In this document: positions 7,783 through 42,009 of the stretch, one piece after another
How the letters are laid out: each line of letters begins with the position of its first letter
How positions within the stretch are numbered: position 1 is the first letter of the stretch
Notes under the pieces: generated by a model
Seen by the model: only the letters and a program-made list of their open reading frames with translations
Told to the model about the DNA's origin: nothing
The model's database searches: none
Translations under genes and position numbers: made by a program
Assembly (NCBI GenBank): GCA_030066075.1
Contig: JASJCH010000020.1
Location: 1-64,000, forward strand
Direction: 5' to 3'
DNA: 64,000 bases
Source: Woeseiaceae bacterium
GTDB lineage: Bacteria > Pseudomonadota > Gammaproteobacteria > Steroidobacterales > Woeseiaceae

Positions 7783-8763
7783 CAGTATTTGCGGCACGGT
7801 CACGGCCGGCAGCCATAGCGCAGTACGCTTGCCGATGTTCGCCCACAGCAGGCCGATCTCGGTGTAGTCGGTGGCTACACCCGCCATCAGGAAGATGAAC
7901 GGGTTGCCCAGCGCGCCGGTCTGGGCGTAGATCTCGAACGCGACCGGCGACGTGCCTTCACTGCAGACCTCGATGACCGTCGCGAACAGCAGCGTCACGA
8001 GCATGCCGGTGAGGTCCGGTCCCAACCACTGCATGAAGAAATGCTCTGGCACGTAGGCGCCGATGAGGGCGGCGGCCATGATGCCGATCAGTATCCACCA
8101 GAGGACCATGTTGGCCAGCGACACGGCGCCGGCGGCACTTCCCTTCGCTGCTTTTGTCAGTTCGAAGTTGCTGACGCGATCCCAGGACACGTCTTCCGGG
8201 TCTGCGGCCTCGGACGATCCTTCGATCCAGCCGAGCGAATCCAGGGCCATGAAAATCAGCCCGGTGACCAGCGCGATCGCCATGGCGCCAAACACGATGT
8301 ACAGGGCCTTGATGCCGAAGAAGCCGAACATCAGGATTGTCATCGGCAGGTTGGCCCACGGAGAGGCGAGCAGGAACGTGACGACCGCCGGCACGCTGGC
8401 GCCTTTCTTGTAGAGCTGGATAGCAATGGCCAGGATGCCGTGCGAGCAGGCCGTCATCAGGAAGCCGGCGAGCACCGAGTAAACGAGCGTCAGCTTCCGG
8501 CGCTGGCCGAGGAAACGCATGATAAAGCCGTCAGGCACAAAGTAGTCGATGACGCCCCCGAGGACCAGGCCGAGCAACACCGCCCACCAGACGATTTCGA
8601 GGTAGCTGAGCAGGCTGTCGTTCAGCGCGCCGAGCTGTGGAATGAAAGACAGCGCCAGCAGTAGGACGAATATACTGCCGACAATCTTGAGTTTGCGGCC
8701 GAGCGGGGGTATACCCCGGTCTTCGGCAGCTTGACTGTGACAGCAATGCGTTTCGCAGGCCAT
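7753..8763 (-). CDS. ArsP/DUF318-type permease, putative Cu/Zn or organometal exporter
   Basis: The 336-residue polytopic protein has two four-to-five-helix halves. Each half carries a conserved kinked motif (MTACSHGILAIAIQLYKKGAS in the first, ATVIEVCSEGTSPVAFE in the second) typical of the DUF318/ArsP permease superfamily. The N-terminus is Cys/His-rich (CETHCCHS), consistent with metal capture, and resembles the SO_0444-type Cu/Zn efflux subgroup. Candidate thiol ligands are the Cys residues in the two motifs. No ArsR-type regulator is adjacent. Metal specificity is inference. Confidence 0.72.
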   Translation of the reverse strand: MACETHCCHSQAAEDRGIPPLGRKLKIVGSIFVLLLALSFIPQLGALNDSLLSYLEIVWWAVLLGLVLGGVIDYFVPDGFIMRFLGQRRKLTLVYSVLAGFLMTACSHGILAIAIQLYKKGASVPAVVTFLLASPWANLPMTILMFGFFGIKALYIVFGAMAIALVTGLIFMALDSLGWIEGSSEAADPEDVSWDRVSNFELTKAAKGSAAGAVSLANMVLWWILIGIMAAALIGAYVPEHFFMQWLGPDLTGMLVTLLFATVIEVCSEGTSPVAFEIYAQTGALGNPFIFLMAGVATDYTEIGLLWANIGKRTALWLPAVTVPQILLLAYFFNQL

Positions 8764-30732: not shown

Positions 30733-31485
30733 ATGAATAAACAGCTATTGTTAACCGCGGTCACGATGCTGCTTGCGGGTACTGCGCAGGCCCAAGAGCG
30801 CGACGCGACCAGCATCGTCAGGGACGCCGTCAACCACTGGCGTGGCCTGTCTTCCGACGCCGTCATGACGATGGTTATCCATCGTCCGGACTGGGAGCGC
30901 ACGATGACGATGCGCGCCTGGACCAAGGGCGACGATCGCTCGTTGGTGCGCGTGCTGGAGCCGACGAAAGATCGCGGCAACGGCACGCTGACTGACGACA
31001 ACAGCATGTGGTCGTTCTCGCCGAAAGTGAATCGCGTCATCAAGATCCCGTCGTCAATGATGGGGCAGAGCTGGATGGGCTCGGACTTTTCCAACAAGGA
31101 CGTGGCGCGCGCCGACGACATCGTCGACCAGTACGACCACAGAATCCTGGGCGTGGAAGAGGCCGACGGCGTGACCATCTACGAGATCGAGTCGATTCCG
31201 CACGAGGATGCCGCCGTGGTCTGGGGGCGCGAGGTGCTGAGTATCCGTGACGACCACGTCGTGACAACGCACCGCTTCTACGACCAGGACGGCGAACTCG
31301 TGAAAACGCTCACGTCGCTGGAGATTGGCGAGATGGGCGGGCGCACGATTGCGCTGCGCCAGCGCATGAGCAAGGAGGAAACGCCCGAGGAATGGACGGA
31401 AATCGCGGTCGAGTCGGTAGATTACGATATAGACCTGCCCGACAGCCTGTTTACACTTTCTAACTTACGCAATCCCCGAGAGTAG
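30733..31485 (+). CDS. LolA-like outer-membrane lipoprotein-sorting protein
   Basis: The 250-residue protein has a clear signal peptide (ending AGTAQA) and the LolA-like fold pattern of PF17131: repeated strand motifs such as SDAVMTMVIHRPDWERTMTMRAW, MWSFSPKVNRVIKIPSSMMGQSWMGSDFS and YEIESIPHEDA. Such proteins are often encoded with FtsX-type ABC permeases. It heads a five-gene cluster that includes two permeases, an ATPase and an outer-membrane barrel. It is likely a periplasmic carrier for a lipid or lipoprotein. It is not LolA itself, which is shorter and lies elsewhere in most genomes. Confidence 0.82.
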   Translation: MNKQLLLTAVTMLLAGTAQAQERDATSIVRDAVNHWRGLSSDAVMTMVIHRPDWERTMTMRAWTKGDDRSLVRVLEPTKDRGNGTLTDDNSMWSFSPKVNRVIKIPSSMMGQSWMGSDFSNKDVARADDIVDQYDHRILGVEEADGVTIYEIESIPHEDAAVVWGREVLSIRDDHVVTTHRFYDQDGELVKTLTSLEIGEMGGRTIALRQRMSKEETPEEWTEIAVESVDYDIDLPDSLFTLSNLRNPRE

Positions 31486-31489
31486 CCGC

Positions 31490-32719
31490 TTGAACCTCGT
31501 CCTTCGCCTGGCGTGGCGCAACCTGTGGCGGCAGCCGCGCCGCACGTGGCTGACGACCGGGGCGATGGTGTTTTCCAACACGCTGCTCGTGTTCATGATC
31601 TCGCTGCAGTTCGGCATGTACGGGCTCATGATCAACAACACGCTGCAGGCGTACACCGGCCACCTGCAGATCCAGGCGCCGGGTTACATCGACGACCAGA
31701 AAATGCGCCAGACGGTGGCCGACATCCTGCCGCTGGCCGAGCGGCTGCGCGCGGAGTTTCCGGAGCAGAGTATCGCCGCCCGCGCCACCGGCTTCGCGCT
31801 GGTTTCCAGCGCTGACCGCAGCTACGGTGTCGCGGTGGTCGGCGTCGAACCCGGTTACGAGAGCCGCGTCTCGACGCTGCCGGGCCTGGTGTCGTCAGGA
31901 CGTTTCCTCGAGGACAATGATGCCGCCGAGATCGTTATCGGCGCGGCCCTGGCGCGAATCCTGCGCGTTGACGTGGGCGACGAGCTGACGCTACTGGGCA
32001 GTGGTAAGGACGGTTCTTTTGCTGCCGCCGTCGTCATCATCGCCGGAATCTTCGACAGCGGGCTGCCCGATTTCGACCGCAGTTTCACCGAGATTCCGCT
32101 CGGACTGTTCGACGACGTGTTTTACATGAACGGCAGCGGCCACCACGTCGTGATCAACAACGGCGGCATCAGCGGCGTGGCCGATCTCAAGACCCGCGTC
32201 GAGGCGACGGTGCCGCCCGGCGAAGAGCTCGTCGTGCATGACTGGGACGCGCTGCAACCCGGGCTGCAGCAGACCATCAAGGCCGATATCAGCAGCGCGT
32301 TTTTCATGTACGGCATTCTGGTCATCCTCGTGGCGTTCAGCGTCCTCAATACGCAGCTGATGTCGGTGCTGGAGCGCACGCATGAGTTCGGCATTGTGAT
32401 GTCGCTGGGTTTGACGCCGGGCCGGCTGGGCCGGCTGGTTCTGCTCGAAACGGCCATCATGGGGTTCATGGGACTTGTGCTTGGCGCCATCCTCGGCGGA
32501 CTGGTGACCTGGTGGCTGAGCTTCAACGGTTTCGCCTACCCGGGCATGGAAGAGATGGCGTCGAGGTTCAACCTGCCGGCCCGCTTCTACCCGGAGGTCA
32601 CCTTGATCTCCTTGCTGTCGGGCCCGGTGGTGGTATTCCTGTTCACGTTACTCGCCGCGCTCTACCCGGCGCTGCGGCTGCACAAACTGCACCCGGTCGA
32701 AGCGATGAGGGCCGTCTGA
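31490..32719 (+). CDS. ABC transporter permease, FtsX/LolE type (first copy)
   Basis: The 409-residue permease starts at TTG four bases after the LolA-like stop. It has one N-terminal helix preceded by LRLAWRNLWRQPRRTWLTT, a large periplasmic domain (about 45-265) and three C-terminal helices including FVALERT-like MSVLERTHEFGIVMSLGLTP, the conserved FtsX-domain motif. This is the MacB/LolCE topology, which uses mechanotransmission instead of a transmembrane pore. It probably forms a heterodimer with the next gene. Confidence 0.87.
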   Translation: MNLVLRLAWRNLWRQPRRTWLTTGAMVFSNTLLVFMISLQFGMYGLMINNTLQAYTGHLQIQAPGYIDDQKMRQTVADILPLAERLRAEFPEQSIAARATGFALVSSADRSYGVAVVGVEPGYESRVSTLPGLVSSGRFLEDNDAAEIVIGAALARILRVDVGDELTLLGSGKDGSFAAAVVIIAGIFDSGLPDFDRSFTEIPLGLFDDVFYMNGSGHHVVINNGGISGVADLKTRVEATVPPGEELVVHDWDALQPGLQQTIKADISSAFFMYGILVILVAFSVLNTQLMSVLERTHEFGIVMSLGLTPGRLGRLVLLETAIMGFMGLVLGAILGGLVTWWLSFNGFAYPGMEEMASRFNLPARFYPEVTLISLLSGPVVVFLFTLLAALYPALRLHKLHPVEAMRAV

Positions 32720-33948
32720 TGCATATGCTCGCGGTCCTGAGTCGACTGGCCTGGCGCAACCTGTGGCGCAATCATCGCCGCACGCTGATCATGCTGCTTG
32801 CGATCATTCTCGGTACCTGGGCGATGATTTTCATGACGGCGCTGATGCGCGGCATGGTGTCACAAATGGTGGCGGACGGTATCAGCTCGCTGCCGGGACA
32901 CGTGCAGGTGCACCACCCTGACTTCCGCGACGACCCGAGCGTCGCCAACCTGATCAACGTGCCCGATTCGGAGATCGCGGAGCGCTTCAATGCCGCTAAC
33001 TTCAGGCAGTGGGCGAGCCGCGTCCGCGTGCCGGCCGTCATCACGAGCGAGTATGACTCGCGTGGCGTGACCCTGGTCGGTGTCGATCCGGCGCTCGAGG
33101 ATGGCCTGACGTTCGTCGACTATCGTGAGGTGGAGGGACGCTTCCTCGAGTCCGCCGACGATAAGGGCGTCGTCATCGGCCGCAAGCTTGCCGATATTCT
33201 GAATACCGAGGTCGGCAAGCGCATCGTGCTGATGAGCCAGGACCCCGATAACGAAATTGCCGACCGCGGCTTCCGTGTTGTCGGTCTGTTCACCGCCAGC
33301 GTCAAAGCGTTCGAGGAACAGTTCGTGTTTGCTGGCAAAACGACGACGCAGAACATGCTGCGTATTGGCGACCAGGTCTCCGAGATTGCGGTACTCGGCG
33401 ACGACTACCGCGATGTCGAGGCGGAGTTTCAAAAAACGCTGGAGCTGATTAACGATGGCGTAACGGTGCAACGCTGGACTGAGGTCGATCGCTTCCTCGG
33501 CACGATGCTCGGCGTAATGGATGGGTTCGTGCTGGTCTGGATCGTCGTGATCTTCCTGGCGCTGTCCTTCGGGCTCGTCAACACGCTGGTTATGGCGGTG
33601 TTTGAGCGCGTGCGTGAGATTGGCCTGATGCTGGCGCTCGGTATGCGGCCCAAGGACATTCTTGGCCAAATCATCCTCGAGTCGCTGCTGTTGCTCGCGA
33701 TCGGCCTGGCGCTGGGCAGCGCGCTCGCCTGGGCGACCGTGCAGCCTATCCGGGACGGCATCGACCTCTCGATGGTCAGCGAGGGCATGGAAATGATGGG
33801 CGTGTCGAGCGTGCTGGTGCCCGAATTGTTGTTGAGCGACGTGGTCCTCGCCAATGTCGTCGTATTGATTCTCGGTTTCTTTGCGAGCCTGTCGCCGGCA
33901 TGGCGCGCGGCGCAATACGAGCCGATCGAAGCCATAACAAAGGTCTGA
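32719..33948 (+). CDS. ABC transporter permease, FtsX/LolC type (second copy)
   Basis: The 409-residue permease starts at the ATG overlapping the preceding stop by one base; the tracked frame runs in too early. It shows the same order: SRLAWRNLWRNHRRTLIML, a periplasmic domain (about 50-270), and AVFERVREIGLMLALGMRPKD in the C-terminal FtsX domain. With its equal-sized neighbour it makes a LolCE-like heterodimer. Both have the Arg-rich N-terminal RNLWR motif, which indicates an old duplication. Confidence 0.87.
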   Translation: MHMLAVLSRLAWRNLWRNHRRTLIMLLAIILGTWAMIFMTALMRGMVSQMVADGISSLPGHVQVHHPDFRDDPSVANLINVPDSEIAERFNAANFRQWASRVRVPAVITSEYDSRGVTLVGVDPALEDGLTFVDYREVEGRFLESADDKGVVIGRKLADILNTEVGKRIVLMSQDPDNEIADRGFRVVGLFTASVKAFEEQFVFAGKTTTQNMLRIGDQVSEIAVLGDDYRDVEAEFQKTLELINDGVTVQRWTEVDRFLGTMLGVMDGFVLVWIVVIFLALSFGLVNTLVMAVFERVREIGLMLALGMRPKDILGQIILESLLLLAIGLALGSALAWATVQPIRDGIDLSMVSEGMEMMGVSSVLVPELLLSDVVLANVVVLILGFFASLSPAWRAAQYEPIEAITKV

Positions 33949-33950
33949 CC

Positions 33951-34643
33951 ATGACAGCAGTGCGTTGCGTTGATTTGTGCAAAACCTATCGCCAGGGCGA
34001 GGAAGACATCAAGGCCCTCGACCACGTCAGCATCGAGATCGAGGAGGGCGGCTTTGTTTGCCTGTCGGCGCCGTCCGGCGGCGGCAAGACTACGCTTCTC
34101 AATGCGATCGGCGGTCTCGACAAACCCGATAGTGGCGAGGTCTACGTCGCGGAGCGCCGCATCGACAACCTGTCCAAGGGCGAGTTGGCCGAACTTCGCC
34201 TGCGCCAGATCGGCTTCGTATTCCAGGCCTTCAACCTGATCCCGGTGCTGACGGCGCGTGAGAATGTCGAGTTCGTCATGCAGGTGCAGGGCGTGCCGGC
34301 GGCCGAGCGCGGACAAAAAGCGCTGGAGATTCTGGAGGAAGTCGGCCTGAAGGGGCTCGAGGACCGGCGCCCGGCCGACATGTCGGGCGGACAGCAGCAG
34401 CGCGTCGCCGTTGCGCGGGCAATCGTCTCGCGGCCGGCGCTGGTGCTGGCCGACGAGCCCACGGCGAACCTCGACTCGAAAACGTCCGATGGCCTTATGG
34501 AGTTGTTCCGCGAACTCAACGACCATCACAGCACGACCTTTGTTATCGCGACACATGACAAGCGCGTGATGAGCTACGCGAAACGTATCGTACGCATGCT
34601 CGACGGCCGCATCGTCGAGGACATCAGCCAGGATGCGGTGTAG
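33951..34643 (+). CDS. ABC transporter ATP-binding subunit (LolD/MacB type)
   Basis: The 230-residue ATPase starts at the ATG two bases after the permease stop. It has Walker A in APSGGGKTTLLN, slightly divergent from the usual GxSGSGKST. The Q-loop is VFQAFNLIPVLTARENVEF, the signature MSGGQQQRVAVARA and Walker B LVLADEPTANLD. These match the LolD/MacB branch. The 3' end overlaps the following barrel gene by 11 bases. It powers lipid or lipoprotein extraction by the two permeases. Confidence 0.88.
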   Translation: MTAVRCVDLCKTYRQGEEDIKALDHVSIEIEEGGFVCLSAPSGGGKTTLLNAIGGLDKPDSGEVYVAERRIDNLSKGELAELRLRQIGFVFQAFNLIPVLTARENVEFVMQVQGVPAAERGQKALEILEEVGLKGLEDRRPADMSGGQQQRVAVARAIVSRPALVLADEPTANLDSKTSDGLMELFRELNDHHSTTFVIATHDKRVMSYAKRIVRMLDGRIVEDISQDAV

Positions 34644-35760
34644 CTGGATAGCGCTGCTGTTTCTGTTCGCCGCCGCTGCGGGGGCTGAGGACAGTCCTTT
34701 CGAGTTCGACGGCCACACCAAGCTGCGCGCTGTGGGGCAGACCTATCCCGACGACAGCCTGTTGCGCGACCTGGCTGGTTCGTCGTCGCTGGACACGATT
34801 GGCGAGCTGCGGCTGAACCTGGCCGCGAAAAAATACGACTGGTCCTTTCACGCCGATTACCAGGCGCTGGGGCTCTACAGCGAGTTCCTGGCGCTCGGGC
34901 TGCCCAACGACGACCGGCGGCTGTTCGACTTCACCAAGGTCGTTGCCGACGGCTCCGACTATGCGCTAGTACACCGGCTGGACCGTTTCTGGGCGGGATA
35001 CGCGGGCCGCAAGCTCGTCGTGCGCGCCGGGCGCCAGGCCCTGTCCTGGGGGAACGGGCTGTACTTTCATCCGCTGGATCTCGTCAATCCCTTCGACCCT
35101 ACGACGATCGACACCGAGTACAAGACGGGTGACGACATGGTCTACGCGCAGTATCTGCGCGATAACGGCGATGACTTGCAGGCCGCGGTCGTGTTCCGGC
35201 GCGACCCGCTCACCGGGGAGCGGCGGAGCGACGAGGGAACGGTCGCGGTTAAGTACCACGGATTTGCTGGCGAGAACGAGTACGACGTGCTGATCGGTGA
35301 GAACTTTGGCGATACCGTGGTCGGTCTCGGTGCCGTCGGCAGCCTGGGCGGCGCCGTCTGGCGCGGCGACCTCGTGATTACGGACGCCGATGACGAGACA
35401 GAGGTAGAGTTCGTAACCAACGTCAGTTACTCGTGGGTCTGGGCCGAGCGCAATGTCAGCGGCTCCGCGGAGTACTACCGCAGCGGGGAAGACCGCGACT
35501 ACTTCGCAGGCAGCCTGATGATCGAGATGACGCCGCTGTGGACCCTGACGCCGACACTGATCGGCAACTTTGATGACCCGAGTGCATTACTGCAGGTCGT
35601 GACCCAGTACAGCCTCGGCGACAACACGACCTTCCTCGGCAGCCTCAACCTGCCGATCGGCGCTAATGGCACTGAGTACGGTGGGCCCGAAACAGGCGTT
35701 CCGGGGCGCTACCTGTCGTTCGATGTCGGCGTTTTCGCGCAGTTGGCCTGGTATTTCTGA
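34633..35760 (+). CDS. Outer-membrane beta-barrel protein of the Lol-like operon
   Basis: The 375-residue protein has a signal peptide (ending AAAGA) and no lipobox. The mature part alternates hydrophobic and polar residues as in barrel strands (WSFHADYQALGLYSEFLAL, VRAGRQALSWGNGLYFHPL, VEFVTNVSYSWVWAERN). The C-terminus is aromatic (FAQLAWYF), typical of BAM substrates. The segment RQALSWGNGLYFHPLDLVN also resembles DUF1302-type barrels. It overlaps the ATPase by 11 bases, so a functional link with the transporter is likely. Acceptor or channel role is inferred. Confidence 0.77.
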   Translation: MRCSWIALLFLFAAAAGAEDSPFEFDGHTKLRAVGQTYPDDSLLRDLAGSSSLDTIGELRLNLAAKKYDWSFHADYQALGLYSEFLALGLPNDDRRLFDFTKVVADGSDYALVHRLDRFWAGYAGRKLVVRAGRQALSWGNGLYFHPLDLVNPFDPTTIDTEYKTGDDMVYAQYLRDNGDDLQAAVVFRRDPLTGERRSDEGTVAVKYHGFAGENEYDVLIGENFGDTVVGLGAVGSLGGAVWRGDLVITDADDETEVEFVTNVSYSWVWAERNVSGSAEYYRSGEDRDYFAGSLMIEMTPLWTLTPTLIGNFDDPSALLQVVTQYSLGDNTTFLGSLNLPIGANGTEYGGPETGVPGRYLSFDVGVFAQLAWYF

Positions 35761-35830
35761 TCGCGCCCATGGGGCGCTCCTACGGACAGGCTTTGATCGC
35801 GCCCGTGGGGCGCTCCTACGGACGCGCTTT
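35759..35830. repeat. Tandem REP-like doublet (2 x 36 bases) between convergent genes
   Basis: Two adjacent 36-base copies differ at three positions. Each copy contains GCGCCC-N3-GGGCGC, a perfect hairpin, followed by TCCTACGG. The reverse complement reads CCGTAGGAGCGCCCC, like the GTAGGAGCG head of REP elements in gammaproteobacteria. It sits exactly between the barrel and hemerythrin genes and may also terminate transcription in both directions. I did not find further copies by eye. Confidence 0.75.
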
Positions 35831-36393
35831 TACGACGCTGACAGGCTCCTGATATTGCGCAGCAGGTTCTCGAACGAATGTTCGCGTTCGGGGCCGAAGA
35901 CCGGGTCGAGCTGGTCGAAGTTTGAGATGTCGATGAACATGTCTTCTTCGTGCTGGATCAGGTCTTTTGCGCGGCGGAACAGGTCTTCCTCCTCCCAGGC
36001 CATGTGCTTCCTGAGCGTACGCACGTAGGTGGCGGCGTCTTCGACCAGGCGCTCGCGGGTGACCGCGGCTCCGGACGCGACTGCCTCGACGTCGTTGCGC
36101 AGCCTGTCGCCGTTCTCGGCAATCTCGCGGTGCTCCGGGCCGACGCGCTCGAGGCCCTCGCCGAGCTCGGGCTGCTGTGCGCGCATCGCGGCGTACAGAA
36201 CGTCTTCCTTGGGATGGTGCACGGCGTCCGAATAGACCGTCATGTAGCGCATGATGTCGTGGATCAGTTCGTAGTCCGGCCGCTCGCCGTCGCGAATGTG
36301 TTCAATCTGCTGGCTGAGGAGATCGAGCATGATCGCCATGTTGCGGTGGTCCTCACGGAGGTCTCTCAAAAGGTCGGCCAGCAGGATGGTCAT
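35830..36393 (-). CDS. Hemerythrin/HHE cation-binding domain protein
   Basis: The 187-residue all-helical protein has the HHE pattern. LREDHRNMAIMLDLL carries the first His, DIMRYMTVYSDAVHHPKEDVLY the second site and EHREIAENGDRL the third; RTLRKHMAWEEEDLFRRA carries the last His and Glu ligands. This makes a di-iron four-helix bundle used for oxygen or NO sensing or iron handling. No partner kinase or cyclase is fused. The gene has its own unit, bounded by the REP doublet. Confidence 0.85.
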   Translation of the reverse strand: MTILLADLLRDLREDHRNMAIMLDLLSQQIEHIRDGERPDYELIHDIMRYMTVYSDAVHHPKEDVLYAAMRAQQPELGEGLERVGPEHREIAENGDRLRNDVEAVASGAAVTRERLVEDAATYVRTLRKHMAWEEEDLFRRAKDLIQHEEDMFIDISNFDQLDPVFGPEREHSFENLLRNIRSLSAS

Positions 36394-36499
36394 TTTCGTG
36401 CCTCTGTTGTTTTCCCTGGTCTTGGATCAGGGTGCGCGCAGGAAATTCCCGCTTGAATCCGTGATTTCACGTACATACATGCGGCCCCCGTTAATCCGG

Positions 36500-36517
36500 T
36501 TGTAATAAAACCGCAAT
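36500..36517 (+). promoter_or_regulatory. Pho-box-like sequence upstream of the PhoB-like regulator
   Basis: TTGTAATAAAACCGCAAT matches 14 of 18 positions of the E. coli Pho box consensus (CTGTCATAWAWCTGTMAY) that I know. It lies about 70 bases before the regulator start in an AT-rich patch of the 194-base intergenic region, consistent with autoregulation. It also overlaps a small CGGTT-N7-AACCG inverted repeat. The four mismatches leave real doubt. Confidence 0.4.
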
Positions 36518-36587
36518 ATCCACGTAAAAGGAGTGTAAAACGCCGGTGCTTTAGTAGACCGGGTGACCGGATAGCCCAGGATTCGAA

Positions 36588-37280
36588 ATGACATTGGCAT
36601 CTATCCTGCTCGTCGACTCGGATGCTGAGTTGCGGCAGCGGATTGCTCAGGAACTGCGAGAGCTCGGCCATGACGTCGACGAACTGGCTACGGCTGGCTC
36701 GGCCATCGAGGCAGTGCATGATACCTGCCCGGACCTGATGGTCTGCGAATTCGCGCTCCCGGACCTCAGCGGTATCGAGCTGCTCAATGATGTCCGCAGT
36801 AGTGAAAAACTGCGTCACCTGCGCGTATTGATGACTTCGGCGGCTCCCGGATCGGGTGACGTGGTTGCCGCGCTCGAGTCCGGCGCCGACGACTTCGTCG
36901 CTAAGCCCGTGGACTTGCAGGAGTTGACTGCGCGCATTGGTGCTTGTCTCAATCGCCCCGCAAACAATGCGGATGCGGGTCGGGTTAATGCCGGTGGAAT
37001 TGCAATTGACAAGATCGGCCACCGCGTCACGGTCGACGACACATTTGTAACGCTTGCACCTCGCGAATACCGTCTTCTCCTCTTCCTCATGACGCACCAG
37101 GATCGGGTATTTAGCCGCAAGCAGCTGCTCGTGTATGTGTGGGACCGGGACGTATCAGTCGGCCCGCGAACGGTCGATGTGCATATACGCCGCCTGCGCA
37201 GCGTACTCGAACCGTTCGACTATGCAGGTTACCTCCAGACTGTGCGGGGCGCCGGCTACCGGTTTTCGCTGCATACCTGA
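36588..37280 (+). CDS. PhoB-like OmpR-family response regulator with Asp54-to-Glu phosphoacceptor
   Basis: The 230-residue regulator has a receiver domain (about 5-118) and a winged-helix effector (about 130-228). The recognition helix TVDVHIRRLRSVLEP and C-terminal YLQTVRGAGYRFS are nearly those of E. coli PhoB. In the receiver, Asp10 and Asp12 (acidic pair), Thr83 and Lys106 are kept. The phosphoacceptor position reads PDLMVCEFALPDLSG, so Glu54 (codon GAA) replaces Asp. Glu can mimic phospho-Asp, suggesting an always-on or phosphorylation-independent regulator. No histidine kinase gene is adjacent. A poor copy of a Pho box precedes the gene. Confidence 0.85.
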   Translation: MTLASILLVDSDAELRQRIAQELRELGHDVDELATAGSAIEAVHDTCPDLMVCEFALPDLSGIELLNDVRSSEKLRHLRVLMTSAAPGSGDVVAALESGADDFVAKPVDLQELTARIGACLNRPANNADAGRVNAGGIAIDKIGHRVTVDDTFVTLAPREYRLLLFLMTHQDRVFSRKQLLVYVWDRDVSVGPRTVDVHIRRLRSVLEPFDYAGYLQTVRGAGYRFSLHT

Positions 37281-37298
37281 CCGAGCGTCGTAACGTAG

Positions 37299-37316
37299 CC
37301 GTGACAAATCTGTCAC
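37299..37316 (+). promoter_or_regulatory. Putative Pho box upstream of the lipoprotein/TonB receptor pair
   Basis: CCGTGACAAATCTGTCAC matches the E. coli Pho box consensus at 15 of 18 positions, with a perfect second heptamer (CTGTCAC) and spacer (AAAT). It lies 19 bases after the regulator stop and 110 bases before the lipoprotein start. The same bases contain a GTGACA-N4-TGTCAC palindrome, so a dimeric non-PhoB protein is an alternative. No good -10 was found at the expected distance. Confidence 0.5.
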
Positions 37317-37426
37317 ATCCGCTCCACATGCCAGCGCTAGTTTGGCCGCCTCGATGGACCGAGAGAGTCCTACCCGACTGATCGCCGCCGACGGTGCGGC
37401 GGCCATTACACAACCTGGAGAGGAAA

Positions 37427-39136
37427 ATGAACCGTACTCAACTGTTCACCGTTGCTTGTTCGGCGATAGCGCTGGCCGCATGCTCAAGCGGCGACGTCAA
37501 TATCAAGCCCGCCACGACGGTGACGGACAGCAACAACACCACGATCAACAACAGTGGCGGTGGCAACCCCAATCAGAACTGCGCTTCTTTCGTTCGTGCC
37601 GGACAGACCTTGCAGGGTACGGACGACGGCAACGGCAACTGCACCTACGGCTCTGCTTTCGTCGGACCGCAGAACAACCTCGATGTTGATCTGTTCATCC
37701 CGGCTCTGCCAAACGGCGGCGTGCATATCTTCACATCGAGCCTGTTTGTCGGCGAGACATACCGTACACAGGCCGACCTCACAGCCGCAGGAATCATCGA
37801 GGGTGGCGACGGCCCGACGCTGACGATCGAAGCTGGTGCCACGCTCGCCTTCCAGACGAACAGTGACTTCGTCATCATTAACCGCGGCTCGCGCATCCTT
37901 GCTGACGGCAACGCCAACAACCCGATCACGTTCACATCGGTTTCCGACATTAACGGCACGGTCCTGCCGGAAGATGTCCAGCAGTGGGGCGGCATCGTCA
38001 TCAACGGTTTCGGCGTCAGCAACAAGTGCAGCTACGACGGCGTTCGGGGCGAGCCTGGCTTTCAACTGACCCCGGGCACCGAGTGCTCGATCGAGGCGGA
38101 AGGTTCCGTCGGTGACGACGAGTCGCAATACGGCGGCGACAACGACGCCGACAGCTCAGGCATCCTGCGCTACGTGCGCGTCAAGCACACCGGCGCCCAG
38201 GTTGCCAACGGCGACGAGCTGAACGGCATCTCGTTCGGCGGCGTCGGCAGCGGCACGGTTATCGAGAACCTGCAGGTTTATTCGACCTATGACGATGGTG
38301 TTGAGATGTTCGGCGGCAGCGTCGACATCACCAATCTCGTCGCTGTCTACGTTCGCGACGACTCTATCGACATCGACGAAGGTTACAACGGCACGATCAC
38401 GAACGCCCTTGTCATCCAGCAGGAAAATGACGGCGATCACTGCATCGAGGCTGACGGTCTCGGCTCATACTCGGGTCTTGACCAGCCGACGAAGGATGAC
38501 TTTATCGCGCGCGACCTCAACAGTGCCCCGACGATTAACAGACTGACCTGCATCGTCTCGGCGAACGAGGGCGGCACGCACTCCGACGGTTCGGGCTGGC
38601 GCCTGCGCGAGGGCATCCACCCAGTCATCAACGATGCGCTCGTGATCTCCAGTTTCGGTGCCAACGACACGTCATCAGGCGACGATAACTATTGCCTGCG
38701 CATTGACAGTGCCGAAACGCAAGATGCCGCGGTCAATGGCGACCTGCAGCTGAACCAGGTCATCTTTGCCTGCCAGGAGAACTCCCGAGGTAACGCCATC
38801 GGCGGATTCGCCGACGAGCAGGCCTGGGCCGAAAGCGTTGGCAACCAGTTCGCGACTCTCGCCGATGGTGTAGCCACCGACCCGACGGTAGCTGCCGACT
38901 CAGGGCTGCAGCTGCTCGAAGCAAGCGCTCAGAATCCGCCGATTTACTCGATCAGCTGGGCATCCTCTCAGGTTGACGGCCTGGCGCCGACGGGCACGAC
39001 ACAACCATCGACAGGCGACTTCCTGGGAGCGTTGGAAGCGTCGTCCGACTGGGCGGCAGGCTGGACCTACGGCATCTTCGATGGCGTTGATGCCAACGGC
39101 AATGCCACGCGGGGCCAGCCGCTGTGGTTCGAGTAA
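37427..39136 (+). CDS. Large surface lipoprotein, beta-helix-like, partner of a TonB receptor
   Basis: The 569-residue product starts at the ATG after GGAGAGGAAA and has a lipobox (LAAC, Cys19). A low-complexity Asn/Thr/Gly linker (about 20-50) precedes a repetitive beta-rich body with IEGGDGPTLTIEAGATLAFQ, ILADGNANNPITFTSVSD, QQWGGIVINGFGVSN and GILRYVRVKHTGAQ. These match a family common in TonB-receptor-rich bacteria that I know only as uncharacterised. It probably sits on the cell surface and binds or processes a ligand for the receptor encoded directly downstream, like SusD in Bacteroidetes but unrelated in fold. Confidence 0.77.
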   Translation: MNRTQLFTVACSAIALAACSSGDVNIKPATTVTDSNNTTINNSGGGNPNQNCASFVRAGQTLQGTDDGNGNCTYGSAFVGPQNNLDVDLFIPALPNGGVHIFTSSLFVGETYRTQADLTAAGIIEGGDGPTLTIEAGATLAFQTNSDFVIINRGSRILADGNANNPITFTSVSDINGTVLPEDVQQWGGIVINGFGVSNKCSYDGVRGEPGFQLTPGTECSIEAEGSVGDDESQYGGDNDADSSGILRYVRVKHTGAQVANGDELNGISFGGVGSGTVIENLQVYSTYDDGVEMFGGSVDITNLVAVYVRDDSIDIDEGYNGTITNALVIQQENDGDHCIEADGLGSYSGLDQPTKDDFIARDLNSAPTINRLTCIVSANEGGTHSDGSGWRLREGIHPVINDALVISSFGANDTSSGDDNYCLRIDSAETQDAAVNGDLQLNQVIFACQENSRGNAIGGFADEQAWAESVGNQFATLADGVATDPTVAADSGLQLLEASAQNPPIYSISWASSQVDGLAPTGTTQPSTGDFLGALEASSDWAAGWTYGIFDGVDANGNATRGQPLWFE

Positions 39137-39141
39137 TCACT

Positions 39142-41955
39142 GTGGTGTCCAGGAACCGGATTTTGGGGCTGGGCCTGGTTACCGCTCTATCTGGTTGGCA
39201 TTCGACGGCGCATGCGCAGGAAGAGGGTACGAACGTCTCGGCTGACGTTGAAGAAGTCATCGTAACGGGTCGCTTCATCAGTTCCAGCCAGCAGCTGATC
39301 AACGAGCGCATGGACGACGCATTCGCGACCGATCTGCTCGGCGCCGACACGATCAGTCGTCTTGGCGATTCGACGGTTGCGGGTGCTTTGCGGCGAATCC
39401 CGGGGCTCACGCTCGTTCAGGACAAGTACGTTTATATCCGTGGCCTCGGTGAGCGCTACTCGCAGACCACGCTCAACGGCGCCTACATCCCTTCCGTGGA
39501 TCTGACCCGCAACGTTATCCCGCTCAATGTGTTCCCGACCTCGGTCGTGGAATCGCTGCGTGTCCAGAAATCGTACTCGCCGGAGCTGTCGGCGAACTTC
39601 GGCGGCGGAGCTGTAGATATCCGCACCAAGGGCATCCCGGACGGCTTCACGCTCAAGTTTGAGGCCGGTATCGCCTTCAATGACGAGAACCCCAGCGATG
39701 TGCTGACCTACAAGGGCGGGGGTGACGACAGCCTCGGCACCGACGATGGCACGCGCAAGCTGTCGCGCGGACTCATCAACGGTGTCGTCGCGTTCCAGGG
39801 CAATCCGAACGTCAACAACATCAACAGCTTCCTGCATCGCCAGGATCCAACCTCGACGCTGTTCGACGCGCAGACCGTCAACCGCCAGCTCGGCGCGGAG
39901 CTCAATCGCGAGGTTGCGATTCGGGAGACCAGCGCCGACCCGGATTACGATTTGCGCGCAAGTGTTGGCAACACCCATGAGATTGGCGCCGACTGGGACT
40001 TCGGCTGGAATGTCGGCGGCTCCTATGAGACCGATTGGCGCTGGCGCAGGACCAGGACCGCAACCTTCGGCGAGCCCGAGGAGGAGAACGGTGTGCGCGA
40101 GGAGACGACCCGCAGCGTAAACATCACCGGCACGCTCAACCTGGGCCTCAAGTTCGCCGAGGACCACGAGCTCGAGACCACCAGCCTGTTCCTGCGCAAC
40201 ACTGACGACGAAACCGAGGTGTTCGACTTCTTTAACGAGAACAACCGTAAGTCGGACGGCCAGGGCTTCCGTGACTACCGGCTGGAGTTCGAAGAGCGCA
40301 ACATGACGACCCACCAGATCGCGGGCACGCACTACCTCGGCAGCGCCACGCGCGAGTTGCTCGGTGGTATGTCAAGGCTTATTGACTGGTTGCCGGAAGA
40401 AACGTCGATTGAGTGGTTTTACTCCGATTCGACGGCCGAGACGGACATCCCCAACCGCGTAGTCATCAACTCCGAGACGGTCACTGATCCCGTCACGGGC
40501 AGGGTGCTCTCGGATCGCGTGACGCGGCAATCCTCAGCCGCCGAGTATCGCTTCACGGAGCTCGAGGACGAGGTCGAGAACTACGGCTGGAAAGGCACGT
40601 TGCCGATCAGCCTCCGGAACAGCTACCTCGAGGTGTCGGGTGGCTACGATCACGCGCAGAAGGTCCGTACCTACGAGCAGTCCGAATTCAGCCTCGGCTT
40701 CCTGTCGGTCGTGGACCAGTCGGTTCTCGAAGGGCCGCTCGACCAGGTGTTCTCGGACGAGAACCTCTTCGAGCGCTTCCCCGACGATCCGTTGACGCAG
40801 ATCGACGAATCGCTTGCCTATGTTAACGACGTGCAGTTTGATCGCCAGGGTTCGAACACCAACAGCTACCTGGCCGCAACCGTGACCGACTCGATGTGGG
40901 GCAAAGTGGACTGGACGTACAAGGATTCGTGGCGGTTCGCAGTGGGCGCGCGCTGGGAGGACTACCGCCAGGTCGCAGTTGAGTGGAATCCGTGGGGCTT
41001 CTCGGAAGAGAACCCGCAGGTCACGACCGATCCGGCTATCCTCGAAGAGCGCACGTTCACCGAGGACGAATACTATCCGGCCGCGTCGGTTACCTACATG
41101 ACCGACTGGTTGGCGGAAACGTTCCAGCTGCGGCTTGGCTACAGTGAGACTGCGGTACGTCCCGACCTGCGTGAGCTTACCGGATCGAGCTACATCGACC
41201 CGATCACTGGGGACCTCGTTCGCGGTAACCCGGGCGTCGTGCCCTCGAAAGTGGATAACATCGACCTGCGTGCAGAGTGGTTCCTAGGCAACGGCGACAA
41301 CTTCACGATTACGCTGTTCCAGAAGGATATTGAGGATCCGATCGAATTCTTCGAGATCCCCGCCTCGGATACGACCATTGCGCGTGAAATTCTGAACGCC
41401 GATTCGTCGGAGGTTCGTGGCATCGAGATCGAAGGCCTCAAGGAGCTCGCTTTTCTTGGCGGCATCTTCGATACGATGTTTGTGCAGGGAAACCTGACGC
41501 TTCAGGAGACCGAGCTCGTTCCGGGCAATCCGAATGACCCGAATGATTCGGGTACCACTCAGGTGTCGTGTTTCCAAACAGAGACCGAGGGCCAGCAGGT
41601 CAGAGTCGTCAAGAACAAATGTCAGCTGTCGGGCGCGTCCGAGTATGTGGCCAACTTCATGCTCGGATTCGACTCGTACGACTCAAAGCACACAGGGTCC
41701 CTGATCTACAACGTGTTCGGCGAGCGCGTCTTCGCTTTCGGCCGCTTCGGTCCGGATGCGATCGAGCAGCCGTTCAAGTCCCTCGACGCGACGTATTTCT
41801 GGTACCCGACCGATCGATTCACGGTCAAAGCGAAAGCCCAGAACATCCTCGGCGACACAATCGAGATCACGCGTTCCGAGCCGGGACGCAAGATCACGGT
41901 TTTCGAGGAAGACCCGGGCACGACGTATTCCGTGGCATTTTCCTGGGAATTCTGA
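39142..41955 (+). CDS. TonB-dependent outer-membrane receptor
   Basis: The receptor is 937 residues from the GTG chosen at 39142. GTG at 39145 is nearly equivalent, while the tracked 39124 start would overlap the upstream stop. A signal peptide ends at STAHA, then comes the TonB-box-like EEVIVTGRFIS. The plug domain includes GALRRIPGLTLVQDKYVYIRG, RYSQTTLNGAYIPSVD and YSPELSANFGGGAVDIRTKG. The barrel follows to the C-terminal SVAFSWEF. It belongs to the receptors with an R-G-L-G-E-R-Y plug motif. It is coupled to the surface lipoprotein upstream and closed by a strong terminator, so the two form one unit. Confidence 0.87.
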   Translation: MVSRNRILGLGLVTALSGWHSTAHAQEEGTNVSADVEEVIVTGRFISSSQQLINERMDDAFATDLLGADTISRLGDSTVAGALRRIPGLTLVQDKYVYIRGLGERYSQTTLNGAYIPSVDLTRNVIPLNVFPTSVVESLRVQKSYSPELSANFGGGAVDIRTKGIPDGFTLKFEAGIAFNDENPSDVLTYKGGGDDSLGTDDGTRKLSRGLINGVVAFQGNPNVNNINSFLHRQDPTSTLFDAQTVNRQLGAELNREVAIRETSADPDYDLRASVGNTHEIGADWDFGWNVGGSYETDWRWRRTRTATFGEPEEENGVREETTRSVNITGTLNLGLKFAEDHELETTSLFLRNTDDETEVFDFFNENNRKSDGQGFRDYRLEFEERNMTTHQIAGTHYLGSATRELLGGMSRLIDWLPEETSIEWFYSDSTAETDIPNRVVINSETVTDPVTGRVLSDRVTRQSSAAEYRFTELEDEVENYGWKGTLPISLRNSYLEVSGGYDHAQKVRTYEQSEFSLGFLSVVDQSVLEGPLDQVFSDENLFERFPDDPLTQIDESLAYVNDVQFDRQGSNTNSYLAATVTDSMWGKVDWTYKDSWRFAVGARWEDYRQVAVEWNPWGFSEENPQVTTDPAILEERTFTEDEYYPAASVTYMTDWLAETFQLRLGYSETAVRPDLRELTGSSYIDPITGDLVRGNPGVVPSKVDNIDLRAEWFLGNGDNFTITLFQKDIEDPIEFFEIPASDTTIAREILNADSSEVRGIEIEGLKELAFLGGIFDTMFVQGNLTLQETELVPGNPNDPNDSGTTQVSCFQTETEGQQVRVVKNKCQLSGASEYVANFMLGFDSYDSKHTGSLIYNVFGERVFAFGRFGPDAIEQPFKSLDATYFWYPTDRFTVKAKAQNILGDTIEITRSEPGRKITVFEEDPGTTYSVAFSWEF

Positions 41956-41980
41956 TCCCCCTCTGAATTCCCTTGATTCA

Positions 41981-42009
41981 ACGGCCCCGCTTGCGGGGCC
42001 GTTTCTTTT
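41981..42009 (+). terminator. Rho-independent terminator after the TonB receptor gene
   Basis: A perfect 10-base stem (ACGGCCCCGC/GCGGGGCCGT) with a two-base loop is followed by TTCTTTT. It closes the lipoprotein/TonB receptor unit. The T-run merges with a TATAAT element that serves the next gene. Confidence 0.9.

Follow-up and report, generated by a model that had tools for sequence, protein, structure and literature searches.

ElpS (CC0170) of Caulobacter crescentus is made in phosphate starvation and is tied to extracellular phosphatase activity, and the gene order elpS (CC0170)-CC0171-type II secretion system (T2SS) is found in Caulobacter and others (PMC2996285). The T2SS is part of the Caulobacter PhoB regulon (PMC11208175). 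In Flavobacterium johnsoniae, lipoprotein FI (Fjoh_3856), a reported ElpS relative with a suggested polygalacturonase-like fold, is induced by phosphate depletion, and the Flavobacterium homologs respond to phosphate depletion and not to nitrogen or iron limitation (PMC8115612). Here we describe a locus of this kind in a 64-kb window (the whole stretch of DNA that was analysed), which is contig C53 of a Woeseiaceae (Gammaproteobacteria) metagenome-assembled genome (2.58-Mb assembly, 80% complete). A regulator gene (36588-37280), a gene for an outer-membrane lipoprotein (37427-39136), a gene for its partner TonB-dependent receptor (about 39142-41955) and a terminator follow one another, all on the + strand. 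We consider it likely that this is a phosphate-starvation locus, in which an ElpS-type lipoprotein and its receptor form an operon read from a PhoB-type promoter and are preceded by a PhoB paralogue that is itself controlled by Pho boxes.

The closest described system is ElpS/Cc0171 (PMC2996285), which shares with the window a lipoprotein with a lipobox (LAAC here), a TonB-dependent receptor gene directly next to it and a link to phosphate starvation, predicted in our case. Relatives of the window lipoprotein displayed the identical lipoprotein-receptor-T2SS order. Unlike in Caulobacter, a PhoB paralogue precedes the window pair and the T2SS genes are not adjacent in the window (GspD was found above cut-off on contig C62); T2SS adjacency was common among ElpS-type pairs but not defining. 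Moreover, cc0171 was reported as constitutive (PMC2996285), whereas both genes of the window pair appear to share one Pho promoter.

Fjoh_3856/Fjoh_3857 (PUSIII, PMC8115612) likewise places a lipoprotein beside a TonB-dependent receptor, but it belongs to the Bacteroidota, a PhoB paralogue of such a type is not reported there, and the homology of Fjoh_3856 to the window lipoprotein runs through the ElpS relation and weak Bacteroidota plasmid matches rather than through direct comparison. PusCD/SusCD systems also combine a surface lipoprotein with a TonB-dependent receptor, and some are phosphate-induced; unlike theirs, the window lipoprotein was found to have no SusD domain (PF07980, PF14322).

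Pho-box arrays and promoters

An earlier note on this DNA had placed an 18-mer matching the Escherichia coli Pho box at 15 of 18 positions before the lipoprotein gene, and a 14/18 match before the regulator gene. When both strands of the window were scored with the E. coli consensus, the former was recovered at 37299-37316 (about 0.08 sites of at least 15/18 are expected by chance in the window), as the only site of at least 14/18 in the window and the only one within three mismatches in the whole assembly. The latter was not, the best match before the regulator being 13/18, at 36500, where about eight such sites per window are expected by chance. Because the E. coli consensus gave a single significant site and left the regulator box at chance level, it was replaced by a local matrix of a 7-base unit, for which other Woeseiaceae genomes supplied the phoB and pstS promoters; in these promoters two units stand 11 bp apart.

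With this matrix, the best three-unit arrays of the window (both strands) were the upstream regions of the regulator and of the lipoprotein (20.7 and 20.2 bits). Both exceeded the best arrays of 100 random 64-kb sequences (mean 10.7, standard deviation 2.7, maximum 19.0 bits), and were thus enriched over background. The regulator array (36489-36539, + strand) displayed four to five units at 11-bp spacing (CGTTAAT at 36489, TTGTAAT at 36500, CCGCAAT at 36511, ACGTAAA at 36522 and GTGTAAA at 36533), and the -10 element there was weak. The lipoprotein array (37288-37327, + strand) encompassed the 15/18 site and held four units (TCGTAAC at 37288, CCGTGAC at 37299, CTGTCAC at 37310 and GCTCCAC at 37321), followed by a -10-like element, TAGTTT (37338-37343, + strand), 10 bp past the last unit, which is the spacing of PhoB-type promoters. 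The real Pho signal is four to five tandem 11-bp units rather than a single 18-mer. A palindromic reading of 37299-37316 (GTGACA-AATC-TGTCAC) was ruled out because what relatives conserve is the 11-bp direct repeat rather than the palindrome.

The arrays were conserved in relatives. Scored with the local matrix against shuffles, all orthologous regulator upstream regions were significant (18/18), as were the lipoprotein upstream regions with an adjacent regulator (19/19) and without one (10/10). A -10 hexamer stood at the fixed 10-bp spacing in 19/19 orthologous lipoprotein promoters, all of them having TA at positions 1-2 and 18 having a T at position 6. Beyond Woeseiaceae, most of the gammaproteobacterial relatives carried the array, Microbulbifer, Pseudoalteromonas and Alteromonas among them. 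Since the lipoprotein array is alike with and without an adjacent regulator, canonical PhoB is likely its common reader and the likely driver of the locus.

The regulator box, at chance level by the E. coli consensus, would suit the view that the box matches are accidental and the locus unrelated to phosphate. This view is very improbable given the ranks obtained with the local matrix, the fixed -10 spacing and the phoBR/pst neighbours in other genomes, and ortholog conservation already contradicts it. Pho control of the pair and of the regulator, as proposed in the earlier note, is supported at the sequence level by the arrays and their conservation, and the pair is very probably switched on by phosphate shortage.

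The unit and spacing of the locus also occurred at the host's own phoB, pstS and porin promoters. The phoB promoter carries the units TCGTAACagaaCTGTAAT and the pstS promoter the units CTGCAACaaatCGGTAAC, each with a -10 box 10 bp on. A loose three-unit pattern in International Union of Pure and Applied Chemistry (IUPAC) code returned 25 matches in the whole assembly, most of which had low matrix scores, versus 5 in a reversed control; the top three by matrix score were both locus arrays and an array before the porin gene of the phoBR cluster. This Porin_5-type porin gene (L100:7065-8351, - strand, contig C103) is flanked by phoR and phoU; upstream of it (to 8500) lie two Pho-box arrays, TTGTCACaaaaGTGCAATatttCTGTCAT and CGGTAACgtgcCGCTAACatttCTGTAAC, the first of which is the third-best array of the scan.

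A PhoB paralogue with an incomplete receiver

The regulator scored 221.2 bits against the PhoB equivalog TIGR02154, under its cut-off of 296.2, while the true PhoB encoded elsewhere in the same genome (contig C103) scored 329.3 bits, above it; by these scores the regulator is a Woeseiaceae PhoB paralogue and not PhoB. Orthologs were found in 21 of 107 family genomes, each of which also had the lipoprotein, and none outside the family in 369 class-wide sampled genomes at E <= 1e-60. Identity was 59-100% in 19 orthologs and 47% in that of genome G086, while that of G090 carries an internal deletion. The linkage on which the module of the earlier note depended holds in relatives, the regulator gene being directly 5' of the pair in 20 of the 21 regulator-bearing genomes and located elsewhere only in G010. 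The regulator tree splits the paralogue from PhoB, but it carries long-branch warnings and therefore no point of duplication is claimed.

With canonical PhoB the paralogue shares domain order, boxes and recognition helix, as the earlier note had seen for the helix: R193, T194, H198, R200, R201 and R203 of helix 193-203 were kept in 20/20 orthologs, and T217 and R219 in 19/19. Unlike in PhoB, the receiver active site is incomplete. The equivalent of PhoB D10, the second acidic residue (DD2) and a direct metal binder, is missing in 20/20 orthologs, replaced by S, A, P, G or V (S in the window). Pseudo-receivers, or atypical response regulators, are defined as missing one or more of the five conserved receiver residues (PMC12632262), and because DD2 is lost the regulator is a pseudo-receiver by that definition. 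The earlier note had named the regulator after a different change, the glutamate at position 54 (the phospho-acceptor, PhoB D53); as a defining trait E54 was rejected, since it is shared with one other genome only, aspartate standing there in 18/20 orthologs, and the family-wide lesion is that of the D10 equivalent.

The paralogue thus resembles ChxR (PMC3960148) and pseudo-receivers (PMC12632262), whose receivers lack a conserved active-site residue and are proposed to act independently of phosphorylation. It differs from them in being paralogous to PhoB itself, in its association with Pho boxes and with a single surface operon, and in keeping D53 in most orthologs. Mean pairwise identity among the paralogues was 63% in the receiver and 77% in the DNA-binding domain, against 79% and 77% in the true PhoB of the same family; judged by these values, constraint has been lost in the receiver of the paralogue and not in its DNA reader. 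The G090 ortholog (L070:8900-9337) has an in-frame deletion of residues ~39-126, including the phosphorylation site; what remains is a protein of 145 residues whose DNA-binding domain is whole, behind promoter arrays that are kept. This deletion, found in one draft genome only, supports action without phosphorylation. Genome G086, which has the most degraded regulator and no PstS match, contains several copies of a short degenerate repeat, GATCGGTACGG...AGAAGACTAGT, in the regulator-lipoprotein gap (L091, about 8026-8430). Tentatively, and with slightly less than an even chance of being right, we propose that a duplicated PhoB kept its DNA reading and lost its phosphorylation switch, becoming a private, phosphorylation-independent modulator of one surface phosphorus-scavenging operon, reduced in one lineage nearly to the DNA-binding domain alone.

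The loop by which PhoB contacts RNA polymerase was rewritten family-wide in the paralogue (G185 to D in 15/20 orthologs, E191 to G in 20/20, D192 to P or A in 18/20), and W184 and V190 were kept. A recognition helix identical to that of PhoB joined to such a loop, in a gene with its own Pho array, would fit an anti-activator, which would occupy the same Pho boxes as PhoB, contact RNA polymerase poorly and so cap or delay Pho output at this locus as negative feedback, with the model otherwise unchanged. We regard this as unlikely, though to be taken seriously: W184 and V190 are kept, and a linked repressor in the same direction as its target is more often a specific sensor, for which no known ligand site is present here. 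A paralogue that reinforces the Pho response is favoured, with fair probability, because W184, V190 and the promoter geometry are all retained.

A further possibility is that the regulator answers to a kinase or ligand of its own, so that the pair would be controlled by the imported substrate and not by phosphate, the Pho boxes serving canonical PhoB only. That it occurs strictly together with the pair, and is linked to it in 20 of 21 genomes, would suit a local, substrate-type regulator, and pseudo-receivers are able to bind ligands or partners (PMC12632262). However, no kinase gene is adjacent to the regulator in the window or in relatives, its DNA-reading helix matches that of PhoB, and G090 kept its arrays after losing the receiver, which makes this account improbable.

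The lipoprotein-receptor pair and phosphorus acquisition

The lipoprotein had been described in the earlier note as large and repetitive; it has 569 residues, no tandem repeats were found in the DNA of its gene, and its structural model is a beta-rich, beta-helix-like solenoid (mean predicted local distance difference test score, pLDDT, 87.6). It has no Pfam or NCBIfam identity, no Pfam match was common to the family members, and a sequence search of the PDB returned weak unrelated matches only. In a Foldseek search against the PDB, the leading matches were all beta-helix lyases, glycosidases and phage tailspikes, but they were weak (best E about 1e-3, none at E <= 0.001, template-modelling scores <=0.3) and no activity was assigned. 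Among 36 lipoprotein relatives, invariant acidic residues include D289, D311, D312, D315, E341 and D343, spaced 22-30 residues apart, about one coil, where a metal or substrate site may lie. Longer lipoproteins were encoded on Alteromonas plasmid pBGP9 (L201:5507-9577) and a Pseudoalteromonas megaplasmid (L209:7683-11783), with about 1,360 residues and up to three matches to the window lipoprotein, and several other gammaproteobacterial genomes displayed two matches in one frame of 800-1,000 residues; in these the beta-helix unit seems to have been multiplied.

The receptor was assigned by Pfam plug and barrel domains (TIGR01782 below cut-off). Its gene starts with GTG at 39142 or 39145, within a long open reading frame that opens at 39124, and it adjoins the lipoprotein gene in nearly all relatives. 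Past it lies the strong intrinsic terminator that the earlier note had pointed out (41980-42003, + strand), with a 10-bp stem and a T tail.

Homologous pairs were repeatedly placed among phosphate genes. On host contig C103, the true PhoB is encoded with PhoR, the porin, PhoU and PstSCAB, and the small genome G014 has the pair immediately after phoB-phoR-porin-phoU-pstSCAB (phoR, phoU, pstS and pstB called by NCBIfam; porin, pstC and pstA by position). In UBA5109, phoB-phoR flank the pair on one side and gspE-gspF on the other, and Alteromonas macleodii plasmid pBGP9 carries it behind phoB, phoR and a PstS-like gene, with an ExbB system after it. PstS was found in 31/33 lipoprotein-bearing genomes versus 34/74 others. 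Sphingomonas and Indioceanicola replicons showed the order lipoprotein, receptor, T2SS genes, with lipoproteins of 36.5% (tblastn of ortholog L114) and 34% (tblastn of the window lipoprotein), respectively.

The fold matches, all to lyases, glycosidases and tailspikes, would suit a carbohydrate-uptake pair placed under Pho control by co-limitation. This is a little less probable even than the substrate-controlled regulator, as the pair recurs in phoBR/pst loci and phosphate depletion, unlike nitrogen or iron limitation, induces its homologs (PMC8115612). Because homologous pairs stand in phoBR/pst loci and homologs in the literature are induced at low phosphate, the pair probably acts in phosphorus acquisition. 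A phosphorylated polymer, the example given in the earlier note, is a possible substrate, but no finding pointed to it. The earlier note had seen in the locus a self-contained phosphorus-uptake system. The acquisition role remains probable, whereas self-containment is not supported, because the same array precedes the pair where no regulator gene adjoins it, and because the genome of the window has a PhoB-PhoR-Pst system of its own.

Around the locus, a hemerythrin-domain gene (35830-36393, - strand) is divergent from the regulator gene, and the Pho array lies in the stretch between the two; a gene of the same cluster (11) occupies that spot in several relatives. Upstream, 30733-35760 encodes an ATP-binding cassette (ABC) transporter permease and ATPase and outer-membrane-type genes, without a Pho array; this block is kept in many relatives (L073, L074, L077, L083, L089-L091; clusters 10, 4, 4, 5, 3), probably as old synteny. 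An M48 peptidase gene comes next after the locus.

Proposed working and significance of the locus

When phosphate is short, the ordinary PhoR-PhoB of the host would bind the tandem 11-bp repeats and recruit sigma70 RNA polymerase at the -10 box, so that lipoprotein, receptor and paralogue would rise together. The paralogue would read the same repeats as PhoB, and because its phosphorylation-site pocket is no longer normal, its effect would be set by its amount and not by phosphorylation; most likely it would reinforce and prolong expression. At the cell surface, a molecule containing phosphorus would be captured by the lipoprotein, or degraded with its help, and the receptor would take up a product.

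Several points weigh against this reading. The transactivation loop is strongly unlike that of PhoB, so the paralogue may not activate, and this is the main reason for doubt about a reinforcing role. D53 and K105 are mostly kept in orthologs, and some phosphorylation of the paralogue may occur. The array was absent from both alphaproteobacterial loci examined. The counts by which PstS co-occurs with the lipoprotein ignore phylogeny. Finally, the pair is filed as ElpS/Cc0171-type by homology to relatives and gene order, not by alignment with CC0170; a plasmid search toward Caulobacter ElpS reached relatives in Sphingomonas and Indioceanicola and none from Caulobacter.

ElpS-type pairs span Proteobacteria and Bacteroidota, and the two cases studied are strongly phosphate-regulated surface proteins. 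At the sequence level, the present locus connects this family with PhoB-type promoters throughout the Gammaproteobacteria, and adds to it a natural PhoB paralogue with a disabled-looking switch beside an ElpS-type pair. Comparing the paralogue with true PhoB on the same boxes offers a way to ask what phosphorylation and the RNA-polymerase-contact loop each contribute to Pho control, and the locus provides a handle on a widespread and poorly understood phosphorus-scavenging system.

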